From Pelagibacterales bacterium SAG-MED17 (GTDB taxonomy: Bacteria; Pseudomonadota; Alphaproteobacteria; Pelagibacterales; Pelagibacteraceae): a stretch of 64,000 nt of DNA. Where the stretch lies: assembly GCA_014654115.1 (NCBI GenBank), contig JACWDO010000001.1, positions 62,001-126,000 on the forward strand. Direction: 5' to 3'. Each line of letters starts with the position of its first letter. The first letter of the stretch is position 1. The notes beneath the pieces are model-generated. The model was given only the letters and a program-made list of their open reading frames with translations. It made no database searches and was not told where the DNA came from. Below, piece after piece: positions 51,471 to 57,274 of the stretch. The position numbers were made by a program, and so were the translations under genes.

Positions 51471-51547
51471 TGGTGCGCCCGCAAGGAGTCGAACCCTGAA
51501 CCTCCAGAGCCGAAATCTGGCGCTCTATCCAGTTGAGCTACGGACGC
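51471..51547 (-). tRNA. tRNA-Arg(UCG), CCA encoded
   Basis: Reverse complement GCGTCCGTAGCTCAACTGGATAGAGCGCCAGATTTCGGCTCTGGAGGTTCAGGGTTCGACTCCTTGCGGGCGCACCA; anticodon loop TTTCGGC. Confidence 0.95.
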
Positions 51548-51612: not shown

Positions 51613-53049
51613 ATGTTAAAAAAAAATATAAATATTAAAAATCATAAATTAGCTTGGTTCTTAATTTTTTTTTTTATTACCATTTTATGTTTTTTTTTAA
51701 GATTTTTTTTGCTTGAAGATAAAAACTCTTGGCACGATGAATGGCATTCTATTTATGTTTCAGATCCTAATATTGATAATTCTGAGACTTTAAAAAGATT
51801 TTGGGGAGATAAAGGAGATCATTTTTTGACTGAATTTTATCCACCATTATATTTATTTTTGCTGAAATTTTTTTTTAAAATTTTTGGATATGTAGACGAC
51901 TATGGTAGATTTTTTTCACTTATTTTTGGAGTTTTAGTAGTTCCATGTTCTATGTATTTAGCTAAATTCTTTACAAATAGTAAAAAAAATATTTTTTTAA
52001 TCGGCATTTTTTTGTCAACAAATTTGTTTCTTATATGGCAGTCTCTAGAAATAAGAGCTCATCTACTTGTGGTATTTATAAACCTTATTAATATTATTTT
52101 ATTTTTAGAAATGATAAAATCAAAAACTCTTATCAAATCTTCTGTATATTTTTTAGTTTCTCTATTTAATATCAGTCTTTGGCCAATATCAGGTCTAATT
52201 TTTGTTGGGAAAAGTTTTTATTTACTTAAAGAGGTGCTTGAAAAGAAACAAAATTACTCAATTTTTGTTCTATTTTTTTTGATACTTGTTGCATATATTT
52301 TTTTAAACTTTGATTATCTGAAATTTAACTTAGCAAGAGACTTTCATTATACTTCTTTTAGTAAAACTTTTTTTTATAATTTTCATTTTAGAAGTTTTTT
52401 TGGTTCAATTTTTGTTGGTGGTATTTTTTTATTATCTTTTGCGTATCTGGTAATTAAGAACTATAAAATAATAATTTTTCAAAACCTAAAGGAAGATATT
52501 TTATTTTATATAATTAGTTCAACATATTTATTAACTATAATTTACTCATTAATTAGAGCTCCAATAATGTCACCAAAATATGTTATATTTGTTATACCTT
52601 TAATTCTTATATGGACTGTTTTAAAAGTTTCAAAATTAAAAAATTCAAATTTTTTTTTGATAATTCTTTTTTCAGTTTCATGCTTAAACTTATACAACAT
52701 AAATGATTTTCCAATAAAGAGACCTGAAACAAAAGTTGCTCTAAAAAAAATTGTTGATTCAAATGATAGCAAATATATTTTTACAAAAGAAAATGATGTT
52801 TTCAAAAATTATCTTAAAACAAAAAAAATTTATCAGCAAAATAATTTAGAATTAATTAAATATGAGGAATTGAGTATGATAAAAACTTTCTGGTACTTTT
52901 GTTTAAATAATCCAAGATTTGCATATGGCGATGCAAAACTTAAAACACACCAAAAATGCAAATTATTTGATAATAAAAGTAATTTTTTATTATTATCTGA
53001 ATTTAAGTTTCCAGATATCATAATTAAAAAATATATATTTACTGACTAA
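51613..53049 (+). CDS. GT-C fold (GT39/ArnT-like) membrane glycosyltransferase, putative
   Basis: 478 aa polytopic; N-terminal DKNSWHDEWHSIYVS and EFYPPLYLFLLKFFFKIFG typical of polyprenyl-P-sugar-dependent GT-C. Confidence 0.65.
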   Translation: MLKKNINIKNHKLAWFLIFFFITILCFFLRFFLLEDKNSWHDEWHSIYVSDPNIDNSETLKRFWGDKGDHFLTEFYPPLYLFLLKFFFKIFGYVDDYGRFFSLIFGVLVVPCSMYLAKFFTNSKKNIFLIGIFLSTNLFLIWQSLEIRAHLLVVFINLINIILFLEMIKSKTLIKSSVYFLVSLFNISLWPISGLIFVGKSFYLLKEVLEKKQNYSIFVLFFLILVAYIFLNFDYLKFNLARDFHYTSFSKTFFYNFHFRSFFGSIFVGGIFLLSFAYLVIKNYKIIIFQNLKEDILFYIISSTYLLTIIYSLIRAPIMSPKYVIFVIPLILIWTVLKVSKLKNSNFFLIILFSVSCLNLYNINDFPIKRPETKVALKKIVDSNDSKYIFTKENDVFKNYLKTKKIYQQNNLELIKYEELSMIKTFWYFCLNNPRFAYGDAKLKTHQKCKLFDNKSNFLLLSEFKFPDIIIKKYIFTD

Positions 53050-53740
53050 TAGTTTTTTTTAAGAGAGATAATAATAGTTTAAATAAAATTGGTAATTTCA
53101 TTTTACTTTGATTCTGTTTTCTTTTTTTAAAAAGAATTTCATACTCTAAAACTTTAAAATTTTCTTTTTTTTGATAGAGAATATCGAATAAAAATTTAAA
53201 ACCTTTTCCATACATTTTTTTTTTGAATTTAAAATAAATTTTTTTTTTAAATATAAAAAACCCACTCATTGGATCTGAAACTTTTTTAATTAAAATTAAG
53301 TTTATTATAAATATCAATATTATTGAGCTTAAAAATCTGAAAAACGATAAACCACTTCGTTTATTAAAATTTCTTACGCAAACAAGAAAATCAGGTGCCT
53401 TCTCTTCATATAAATTCATAATTATTGGTAAATATTTTGGGTCATGTTGAAGGTCTCCATCCATAACTATAATATTTTCAAATTTTGATTTTGTAATCCC
53501 TAATGAGATCGAAGAACTTAGATCTTTAAATTTTTCTTTTCTAATATAATACCTATAGTTTTTGTATTTATTTTGTAATCTCTTTAGTAGCTGATCACTA
53601 CTATCAGATGAATTATCATCAATAAATATTATTTCAAATTTTTTCCTGTTACAAAAAAAAAATATTTTTTCAGATAATATCTGAATATTTTTTTTCTCAT
53701 TAAGCACAGGTATAATTATCGAAAATGATTTATTATTCAT
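53039..53740 (-). CDS. GT2 family, polyprenyl-phosphate sugar synthase-like (DPM1-like)
   Basis: 233 aa; FSIIIPVLNEKKNI, IFIDDNSSDSSDQ, VMDGDLQHDPKYLP, DPMSGFFIFKK. Confidence 0.88.
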   Translation of the reverse strand: MNNKSFSIIIPVLNEKKNIQILSEKIFFFCNRKKFEIIFIDDNSSDSSDQLLKRLQNKYKNYRYYIRKEKFKDLSSSISLGITKSKFENIIVMDGDLQHDPKYLPIIMNLYEEKAPDFLVCVRNFNKRSGLSFFRFLSSIILIFIINLILIKKVSDPMSGFFIFKKKIYFKFKKKMYGKGFKFLFDILYQKKENFKVLEYEILFKKRKQNQSKMKLPILFKLLLSLLKKTISQ

Positions 53741-53790
53741 TTTACTTTATTCATGTTATAAGTTGACTTAAAGTATTAAACAAATATTTC

Positions 53791-55083
53791 ATGAAAAAAA
53801 TTTACTTATTTTTTTTTTTAATTTCACTGTATTTCGCTAGCTTAGTTATATTTGGATCATTAGTAAGGCATGCTGCTTTTAAAGGGCCTTTTTCTGACAA
53901 TATTATTATTAAATTATCAGACAGTATGTCTAAAATTCCATCAAATCTAAAAACATATATATTTGGAGGAGATTTGGCTATTCAAAAAAAAGATAGACTA
54001 AATATTTCTTTAAAAAAAAAAGGTTTAAAAATATTTATAAATGAGAATTTAGAAGAATATATTCTAGTTTCAAAATATTTTCTTGATGAAAATTCTTTTA
54101 AACTTCAATTAATAGATGTTTTAAATAATTCTATTATATATACATGGCCGCAAAAAAGATTCACAAGTACACTTTCAGAATCTAGTGGTCCTGGCCGATA
54201 TACATTCGAACATTCTATGCTATTAGATGGAGGTGACATACTCACAACAACAGGTGGGGAACCCATTATGAAAATTGATATTTGTGGAAATAAAATTTGG
54301 GAAAATGATATGAATACACACCATAGTATTGAGATAGATAAAGATAAAAATATTTGGGCACCTATATATTTAAACGAAAAAAAAAAATTACACGGACAAA
54401 CTTTACAGTATCATGACGGAATTGGAAAAATTGATATAAACACTGGTACAACTCTATTTCAAAAATCATTATATGATATACTAATAGAAAATAATTTATT
54501 TGATTTAATGGGAAATTCATATATGGGTGAAGATCCTTTGCACCTTAACGATATAGAGCCCGTACTGGAAGATGGAAATTTTTGGAAAGAAGATGATCTG
54601 TTTCTTTCTTTAAGAAATATTTCACTTGTACTACTTTATAGACCATCAACAAATAAGATAATTTGGTACAAATTTGGACCATGGAGACATCAACATGATG
54701 TTGACATTATTGATAAAAATAAAATAGCAATTTTTAATAATAATACTCAGCTGGGTATAAAATCTGTTAATCGAAACTCTGAAATCTTAGTGTATGATTT
54801 CGATAATTCAAGAGTGGGAAATATTTTTGATAAACTTTTTGTTAAACATAAAATAAAAACTTATTACGAGGGTCTATTTGAAAAAATTGATGATAAATCT
54901 ATATATGTTGAAGAACAAGAAAATGGAAGGATAATTAAGGGCAATATGGACGGCAATATAATATGGGAATATATATGGGATGCTCAAATAAAATGGTCTA
55001 GATTTTATAACAACAACAATTTTAAAAAAGTCGGTAATTTATCAGAAACAGTAAAAAATATAAAAAACAATAAATGCAGTTAA
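53791..55083 (+). CDS. Arylsulfotransferase (ASST)-like protein with N-terminal membrane anchor
   Basis: 430 aa; MLLDGGDILTTTGGEPIMKIDICGNKIWENDMNTHHSIEIDKDKNIWAP, HLNDIEPV, WRHQHDVDIIDKNKIAIFNNN. Confidence 0.75.
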   Translation: MKKIYLFFFLISLYFASLVIFGSLVRHAAFKGPFSDNIIIKLSDSMSKIPSNLKTYIFGGDLAIQKKDRLNISLKKKGLKIFINENLEEYILVSKYFLDENSFKLQLIDVLNNSIIYTWPQKRFTSTLSESSGPGRYTFEHSMLLDGGDILTTTGGEPIMKIDICGNKIWENDMNTHHSIEIDKDKNIWAPIYLNEKKKLHGQTLQYHDGIGKIDINTGTTLFQKSLYDILIENNLFDLMGNSYMGEDPLHLNDIEPVLEDGNFWKEDDLFLSLRNISLVLLYRPSTNKIIWYKFGPWRHQHDVDIIDKNKIAIFNNNTQLGIKSVNRNSEILVYDFDNSRVGNIFDKLFVKHKIKTYYEGLFEKIDDKSIYVEEQENGRIIKGNMDGNIIWEYIWDAQIKWSRFYNNNNFKKVGNLSETVKNIKNNKCS

Positions 55084-55292
55084 ATTTTTTTCTATTTTTA
55101 ATCGAGATAATTGTTTTATTTATTCCATTAAATATTGCTAATGCCTATGTTGGACCAGCTTTAGGATTAGGAGCCTTGGCAATAACAGTCCTATTTATTC
55201 TTGCACTATTAGTAATTATATTTTCAATAGTTTACTATCCAATTAAATTTATAAAAAGAAAATTAAAAAAAAAAAAAATTGATGAAAAGTAG
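55074..55292 (+). CDS. Small signal-peptide/one-TM protein with YVGPALGLGAL motif
   Basis: 72 aa; overlaps ASST-like stop; signal-like N-terminus ending NANAYVG, one TM helix, Lys-rich C-terminus. Confidence 0.7.
   Translation: MQLNFFLFLIEIIVLFIPLNIANAYVGPALGLGALAITVLFILALLVIIFSIVYYPIKFIKRKLKKKKIDEK
55265..55278 (+). repeat. A14 homopolymer at the 72-aa ORF / sulfotransferase junction
   Basis: Read directly: aattAAAAAAAAAAAAAAttgatg. Confidence 0.95.
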
Positions 55293-56295
55293 TTTTTCTA
55301 AATTAGAAAAAATCTTTTTAGGGATAGTATTTAAAATAGGTTTTTTAAATAGAGTGCTTTTTGATATAGAGAAAGTTTTTATAAAAAAAAAGTTATTAAT
55401 TAATAAATCTATTTTTATTTGTGGTTTACCTAGATCCGGAACAAGCATTCTTCTAAATACTCTATATTCAAGTGATAAATTTGCGTGTAGCACCTATAGA
55501 AATATGCCTTTTATTTTATCACCTAATATATGGTCTTTTTTTTCTAAATTTATAAAAAAATCAAATTATTTCGAAAGAGCTCATAAAGATGGTTTAAAAA
55601 TTAATATTGATAGTCCAGAAGCATTTGAGGAAGTTTTTTGGAAAATAATGATGAAAGATGAATACATAAAAGAAGACAAATTAAATGAGCATAATTTAAA
55701 TGATGATATAATTGAGGAATTTGATGCTTTTAAAGAATTGCTATGTCAAAGTAAAAGAAAAAATAATTATATCTCAAAGAATAATAGTAATATTTTGAGA
55801 ATTGGTGACTTAAGCAAACATTATCAGGATGCTAAGTTTATTATCATGTATAGAGATCCTTTAAATCAAAGTAATTCACTGAGGAAGCAATATATAAATT
55901 TCAAAAAAATTCATAAAGAAGATAGTTTCTTTATAGAATACATGTCCTTTCTAGGACATTTTGAATTTGGTATGAATTATAAGAAATATAGTTTTGAGAG
56001 TGAAAAAAAGTTTCACATAGAAGATCTAGGGTTTTGGTTAGAGAAATGGTGCCAAGTTTATGAATATTTATTTAGTAAAAATGAAAAAAACATAACTTTT
56101 TTAAGTTATGAAAATTTTTGTAAAAATCCAAGAAACTCTCTAGAAAAAATTATAAAAGATAGAAATATCATATCAAATATTGATTTTAAAAATATACAGA
56201 ACAATAATTTAAACATTAAATTTGAAGGAAGAATAAAAGATAAAGCATATCTTATATACGAAAAACTAAACAAATTAGAAAAATCTAGTGCCTGA
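55279..56295 (+). CDS. Sulfotransferase family protein (PAPS-dependent, putative)
   Basis: 338 aa (TTG start, or ATG at 55282); FICGLPRSGTSILLNTL 5'-PSB-type motif; FIIMYRDPLNQSNSLRKQY 3'-PB-like motif. Confidence 0.8.
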   Translation: MMKSSFSKLEKIFLGIVFKIGFLNRVLFDIEKVFIKKKLLINKSIFICGLPRSGTSILLNTLYSSDKFACSTYRNMPFILSPNIWSFFSKFIKKSNYFERAHKDGLKINIDSPEAFEEVFWKIMMKDEYIKEDKLNEHNLNDDIIEEFDAFKELLCQSKRKNNYISKNNSNILRIGDLSKHYQDAKFIIMYRDPLNQSNSLRKQYINFKKIHKEDSFFIEYMSFLGHFEFGMNYKKYSFESEKKFHIEDLGFWLEKWCQVYEYLFSKNEKNITFLSYENFCKNPRNSLEKIIKDRNIISNIDFKNIQNNNLNIKFEGRIKDKAYLIYEKLNKLEKSSA

Positions 56296-57274
56296 CCTAA
56301 ACTCAAATATATTTATAGTTGATAAGAACAGTGATGGATTAAGAATAGATAAATTTATAAATAAAAAGAATAAAGACCTTAGCAGAACGAGAATAAAAAA
56401 TTTGATTCTTAAGAAAAAAATGAAATTAAATAATAAAATAATAATTGAACCATCAAAAAAGGTTTTTTACGGGGATTCTATTTTGTTTCAGATACCAGAG
56501 CCTGAAAAAACTCTATTAGAACCCTATGATTATAAACTCAATATAGTTTTTGAAGATGAAGATTTATTAATCATTGATAAATCTGCTGGTATTTCTATTC
56601 ACCCAGGAGCTGGAAATTATACAAAAACAATTGTTAATGCACTTATTAATTTTAATAAAAGTAATTTATCAGATTTGGGAGATGAAATGAGACCGGGAAT
56701 TGTTCATCGTATTGATAAAGATACTTCAGGACTAATAGTCGTTGCAAAAAATAATAAAGCTCATGAAAAATTGTCGAACCAATTTTCAGATCATACCATA
56801 TCAAGAGTTTATAAAGCCCTGGTATGGGGAAAATTACGACCTTCTAAGGGTAAAATAGAAACTTTAATAACTAGAAGCTCGCGAAATAGACAAATGATGG
56901 AGGCAAGTTTTGTTAAAGGAAAAAAATCAATTACAAATTATAAAACAATTGAGATATTTGAAAATGATAAAATACCAACATTCAGCCTAGTAGAATGTAG
57001 ACTCGAAACTGGAAGAACTCACCAAATTAGAGTACATTTAAGTCACAAAGGTAATAATATTCTTGGTGATAAAAAATATAAAAAGAAATTTAAAAAAATT
57101 AATAAAATTGATCCTATTTTAGAAGACGCTATTTTGAAATTAGATAGACAATTCTTACATGCAGAGTCTCTTGGCTTTACACATCCTAGAACCTCAAAAA
57201 AAATTGAGTTTTTCTCTAAATTGCCTAAAGAATTAAATAATATCTTAAAAAAGCTAAGAATTACTCACAAATAA
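56288..57274 (+). CDS. RluA-family 23S rRNA pseudouridine synthase (RluC/RluD-like)
   Basis: 328 aa; S4 domain, MRPGIVHRIDKDTSGLIVVAKN, GRTHQIRVHLSHKG. Confidence 0.93.
   Translation: MPDLNSNIFIVDKNSDGLRIDKFINKKNKDLSRTRIKNLILKKKMKLNNKIIIEPSKKVFYGDSILFQIPEPEKTLLEPYDYKLNIVFEDEDLLIIDKSAGISIHPGAGNYTKTIVNALINFNKSNLSDLGDEMRPGIVHRIDKDTSGLIVVAKNNKAHEKLSNQFSDHTISRVYKALVWGKLRPSKGKIETLITRSSRNRQMMEASFVKGKKSITNYKTIEIFENDKIPTFSLVECRLETGRTHQIRVHLSHKGNNILGDKKYKKKFKKINKIDPILEDAILKLDRQFLHAESLGFTHPRTSKKIEFFSKLPKELNNILKKLRITHK

Follow-up and report, generated by a model that had tools for sequence, protein, structure and literature searches.

A conserved arylsulfotransferase–YxGPG–sulfotransferase cassette in an accessory islet of SAR11: a candidate two-step sulfate relay

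The 64,000-nucleotide stretch of Pelagibacterales DNA analyzed here (the window) contains five consecutive open reading frames (ORFs) between a tRNA gene and rluD. The tRNA-Arg(tcg), located by ARAGORN on the minus strand (51471..51547), is the left boundary of the block. A 478-residue GT-C membrane glycosyltransferase (51613..53049, plus strand) comes next, followed by a 233-residue DPM1-like GT2 glycosyltransferase (53039..53740; PF00535, E=1e-23). All five ORFs were found where the preliminary description of this DNA had placed them, although it left unstated that the GT2 gene is encoded on the minus strand and converges on GT-C. The remaining three are on the plus strand: a 430-residue predicted periplasmic, PAPS-independent arylsulfotransferase (ASST; 53791..55083; PF14269, E=2e-40), a 72-residue protein (55074..55292), named YxGPG here after its conserved motif, and a 338-residue PAPS-type sulfotransferase (ST; 55279..56295; PF13469, 6e-16; PF00685, 6e-7), whose start codon is either TTG at 55279 or ATG at 55282. 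The right boundary is rluD (56288..57274, plus strand; PF00849). From ASST to rluD each gene overlaps the next, ASST and the 72-aa gene by 10 bp, the latter and ST by 14 bp, and ST and rluD by 8 bp, which suggests that the four are co-translated as one unit. The block is more AT-rich than its surroundings, with a GC content of 20–26% against 30% for the window.

The tRNA-Arg and rluD genes are separated by only ~40 bp in 12 relatives that lack the block, and in 11 of these 12 the tRNA is flanked on its far side by an ABC permease gene. Since the two boundary genes adjoin in these genomes, the gene order identifies the block as an accessory islet, resulting from either insertion or replacement at this site, in line with the compact, non-core block of accessory nature proposed earlier. 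A second Pelagibacteraceae genome (AG-910-O15, locus L114) carries GT2 and the three genes from ASST to ST in this position, before rluD and rpoH; the GT2 gene beside the cassette is split there into two frames (L114:1-512) and is either broken or misassembled. The rluD gene of the window is 90% identical to that of the islet-bearing locus (L114:3041-4027) and only 64–68% identical to those of the islet-free relatives, even where the ABC permease and rpoH are 96% and 93% identical. The rluD allele therefore seems to travel together with the islet and to have come in with it. A phage origin of the cassette was considered and rejected, as no relative of ASST or ST was found in viral contigs and no ST in phage records.

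The ASST matches the PF14269 (Arylsulfotran_2) profile with 139.6 bits, the cut-off being 27, and gave no match to PF05935 in Pfam. Residues H178, H251, N253, and H302 are invariant among 62 homologs, and R275 is found in at least 90% of them. The active site of the E. coli enzyme is composed of His252, His356, Asn358, Arg374, and His436 (PMC13426309), of which H178, H251, N253, R275, and H302 are the likely counterparts, respectively; the pairing follows from order and motif, and residue alignment with Cpz4, an enzyme of the caprazamycin pathway, backs R275 and H302 only. H302 is the predicted sulfo-histidine. The AlphaFold model (pLDDT 89.5) contains a β-propeller and an N-terminal transmembrane (TM) helix at residues 2–29, with a further helix between the two. 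Its top match in the PDB was Cpz4 (9kf6 and 9kf4, E 2.9e-13), and the E. coli ASST (3elq) was one of those ranking just below; similarity to Cpz4 in this fold match is low, with 14% identity and a TM-score of 0.57. The “LSxR” and “QHDV” motifs, the second of which holds the catalytic histidine, align with Cpz4 also by sequence. In profile searches of the PDB, eight ASST sequences reached no ASST, and the 62-sequence profile reached Cpz4. Two complete ASST copies, in tandem or near-tandem, occur at four other loci (L125, L136, L147, and L167), which suggests that the paralogs use different acceptors or donors.

The ST carries both the 5'-PSB loop and the 3'-PB Arg/Ser features of PAPS sulfotransferases: R52 and G54 of the PAPS loop, together with R192 and S200, are invariant among 34 homologs, and H102 and D104 are also conserved. 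All 34 match PF13469. The family matches of these neighboring ORFs thus agree with the earlier reading of a cytosolic-type sulfotransferase adjoining a periplasmic-type one. The 72-aa protein between them gave no informative match. Its signal-like N-terminus contains an AxA site and precedes a single TM helix and a tail rich in basic residues, and its Y-x-G-P-[GA] motif is kept in 67 of 68 copies; in 51 of the 68, the motif is found directly after the AxA-type signal-peptidase site and is followed by the TM helix and the basic tail. In many loci, a protein of ~120 residues with three hydrophobic stretches is encoded between the YxGPG gene and ST; in Rhodobacteraceae (L151 and L134) and Hyphomonas (L193) it forms the N-terminal part of a fusion with ST, and it is absent from the window. 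Plasmid records show the same gene order, with the small genes annotated as “hypothetical protein”.

Regarding the glycosyltransferases, the 478-aa ORF has no Pfam match of its own, and 7 of its 18 homologs match PMT_2. W40, D42, and E43 are invariant among the homologs, the first outer loop carrying the acidic motif of GT-C enzymes, and the model (pLDDT 85) has ArnT (5f15, E=8e-6) as its top PDB match, followed by oligosaccharyltransferases, Pmt4, and ALG9. All the families assigned in the preliminary description, GT-C, GT2, ASST, and ST, were therefore recovered. Its proposal that the five genes form one module did not hold for the two glycosyltransferases. GT-C is found in 21 of 197 SAR11-family genomes and shared with ASST only in that of the window, in G054 (AG-470-E16), where the two are adjacent, and in G003, where they lie at distant chromosomal sites; the other five ASST-bearing genomes lack it. 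GT-C and GT2 together adjoin the cassette only in the window and in G054 (locus L115), with GT2 also present in L114. Both genes are facultative neighbors, found with the cassette only within the ASST clade to which the window belongs. In G054, a methyltransferase gene (PF13578; L115:6785-7753), absent from the window, lies between GT2 and ASST.

The conserved core is thus composed of ASST, the 72-aa YxGPG gene, and ST, with the ~120-aa protein as an optional element before ST, and for these three genes co-occurrence in related genomes is strong. ASST was found in 8 and ST in 9 of the 197 SAR11-family genomes, and all eight with ASST also have ST (hypergeometric probability 2e-13, kinship ignored). 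The three SAR11 genes are adjacent wherever the contig allows, at different chromosomal sites, beside genes that we take from their sequences to be groEL, lepA, dnaJ, valS, and others. A scan for an ASST motif in genomes of 84,980 species, blind to the neighboring genes, gave loci in Pelagibacteraceae, SUP05, SAR86, SAR116, Prochlorococcus, Synechococcus, and Sphingomonas, as well as in Rhodobacterales, Halochromatium, Nitrospina, Mariprofundus, and Bacteroidota. Among the 64 loci with at least 2.5 kb on each side, the YxGPG gene lies within 400 bp of ASST in 53 and ST within 3.5 kb in 56, both conditions being found in 52. ST is encoded elsewhere in 8 of the 11 genomes without an ST adjoining ASST, two of the 11 being partial or contig-limited; it was not found in the 4-Mb genome G224 (L145), which has ASST. 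The complete genome G009 contains ST and the ~120-aa protein among polysaccharide-type genes, without ASST or the YxGPG gene (L053:9600-10911). The distance matrices of ASST and ST have a correlation of 0.93, with species relatedness not controlled for, which indicates that the two genes move together. The ASST tree has Pelagibacteraceae on at least three separate branches and places SAR86, along with other proteobacterial sequences, within the Prochlorococcus/Synechococcus group, a topology consistent with transfer between plankton, or possibly with contamination of single-cell assemblies. Beyond these genes, the cassette has no neighbor that is shared by many unrelated lineages, and we did not find a description of the cassette in the open-access literature, although one may exist elsewhere.

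The ST would depend on PAPS, and a source of its precursor APS was found in all nine genomes with ASST and/or ST, since each has either AprA or CysD/CysN-C. Full-length AprA, which forms APS from sulfite, is present in seven of them, including that of the window; the other two, the g9 genomes G009 and G054, have CysD and CysN-C instead, the two systems being mutually exclusive among the genomes examined. AprA occurs just as much in genomes that lack the cassette and so has no specific link to it. The ATP sulfurylase Sat is absent from all nine. An APS kinase over the cut-off was found only in G009 and G054; the AprA-bearing genomes have no more than weak APS-kinase-like genes, among them CysC-like ones in G116 and G003. 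At L141, CysD-, CysN-C-, and CysQ-like genes adjoin the cassette. In two SAR11 genomes (L049:15686-16105 and L123:6422-6853), a short APS-kinase-like P-loop kinase of 139–143 residues is encoded directly beside it and could supply the missing activity; many SAR11 genomes have short proteins of this kind. In L117, a CysC-like kinase is encoded three genes away from the cassette, but it sits among phosphonate- or polysaccharide-looking genes and was not counted as a PAPS source.

In the caprazamycin pathway, a triketide pyrone is sulfated by Cpz8, a PAPS enzyme, and Cpz4 takes the resulting phenolic sulfate as its donor to move the sulfate to the antibiotic (PMC4257720; PMC6731281). Because both types of enzyme recur in the cassette, we consider it probable, by analogy, that ASST, the 72-aa protein, and ST form a self-contained unit that relays sulfate across the inner membrane in two steps. 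In this relay, the cytosolic ST would be kept at the membrane, in other bacteria through the adjoining or fused ~120-aa protein, and would use PAPS to sulfate a phenolic carrier associated with the membrane. The sulfated carrier would then reach the outer face, perhaps aided by the YxGPG protein, where the TM-anchored periplasmic ASST would take the sulfo group onto H302 and pass it to a surface acceptor. That the product of ST is the donor of ASST we infer from their co-occurrence and from the caprazamycin precedent. Several results speak against the relay: the low similarity to Cpz4, the ASST-bearing genome G224 in which no ST was found, the lack of a type III polyketide synthase in nine SAR11 genomes, and the weak APS-kinase candidates of most SAR11 hosts. 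The two sulfotransfer chemistries side by side, described as unexpected in the preliminary description, could accordingly be recast as two steps of one pathway, as in Cpz8/Cpz4. In the genome of the window, the neighboring GT2/GT-C pair may supply a glycan as this acceptor. As a general rule, a surface-glycan context was rejected, the cassette neighbors being too varied, and the surface glycan or lipid acceptor proposed earlier stays a supposition: the immediate neighbors of ~30 cassettes are spread over 183 Pfam families, among which no class of glycan genes dominates. A more general form of the relay, in which a common phenol soluble in lipids, such as a quinol of respiration or photosynthesis, would be the carrier, and the YxGPG and ~120-aa proteins its membrane core, is unlikely; quinols are phenol-type lipids that these hosts have in common, but their choice is a speculation.

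Other readings of the cassette were weighed against the relay. The two enzymes could sulfate one product independently, ST acting with PAPS on a cytosolic glycan or lipid precursor and ASST adding further sulfate in the periplasm from environmental aryl sulfates, so that their linkage would reflect only the same surface molecule. ASSTs do accept many aryl sulfates in vitro, their natural donors being unknown (PMC13426309), and GT-C and GT2 adjoin the cassette in the window's clade. Nevertheless, the near-obligate pairing of ASST and ST across phyla, in varied gene contexts where the neighbors are not consistently glycan genes, and the fact that the closest solved relative of the ASST is the relay enzyme Cpz4, make independent sulfations a possible but rather unlikely explanation. 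It is quite improbable that the cassette has a role other than sulfation, with an ST homolog that transfers another group or an ASST-like propeller that is a non-catalytic scaffold. The low similarity of both proteins to characterized members would fit such a role, but the catalytic residues are invariant across the 62 ASST homologs, as are the PAPS-loop residues across the 34 ST homologs, every one a PF13469 member.

A reversed flow, in which ASST would strip external aryl sulfates in the periplasm and the other proteins would help a cell incapable of sulfate reduction to use the product as a sulfur source, appears very improbable. Most cassette-bearing SAR11 genomes are without CysD, which would fit such scavenging. 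PAPS sulfotransferases, however, run from PAPS to the acceptor, and the cassette is also found in Prochlorococcus and Synechococcus, which assimilate sulfate, and in G054 and L141, both with CysD and CysN-C. Its presence in only 8 of the 197 SAR11 genomes is, moreover, too rare for a core sulfur source.

According to a 2026 review (PMC13426309), little is yet understood of what bacterial arylsulfotransferases act on in nature and of their physiological roles. The conserved partner ST offers a testable sulfate source for these enzymes, an internal donor made from PAPS as opposed to chance environmental phenol sulfates. The relay would also give a context to two uncharacterized families of small membrane proteins, and, if a quinol were the carrier, cytosolic PAPS would pay for the sulfation of surface molecules. 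The hosts of the cassette include SAR11 and Prochlorococcus, both dominant in the ocean, as well as culturable Sphingomonas, Ruegeria, and Novosphingobium; the question is therefore open to genetic testing.

Three known systems can be compared with the cassette. The GT-C enzymes of the ArnT/PMT type, with their DPM1-like GT2 partners, resemble the glycosyltransferase pair of the window in the ArnT match of the GT-C model and in the PF00535 family of the GT2; they differ in that this pair only facultatively neighbors the cassette. E. coli AssT (3ELQ) shares with the cassette ASST the propeller fold and the likely counterparts of five active-site residues, but it belongs to PF05935 instead of PF14269, is longer (566 residues versus 430), and has an N-terminal β-sandwich where the cassette enzyme has a TM anchor. 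A further parallel, in family membership and linkage, is the caprazamycin pair of Streptomyces, Cpz8 and Cpz4, in which a PAPS-type ST and an ASST are also encoded together, Cpz4 being the top structural match of the cassette ASST with both of its motifs aligned. No type III polyketide synthase (PF00195), the maker of the caprazamycin carrier, was found in the nine SAR11 genomes with ASST and/or ST (that of the window 61% complete, four others at least 94%), which suggests that the cassette uses a different carrier. In contrast to the caprazamycin system, the cassette has one or two additional small membrane proteins and no antibiotic cluster, is spread over at least four phyla, and has its two steps predicted on opposite sides of the membrane.
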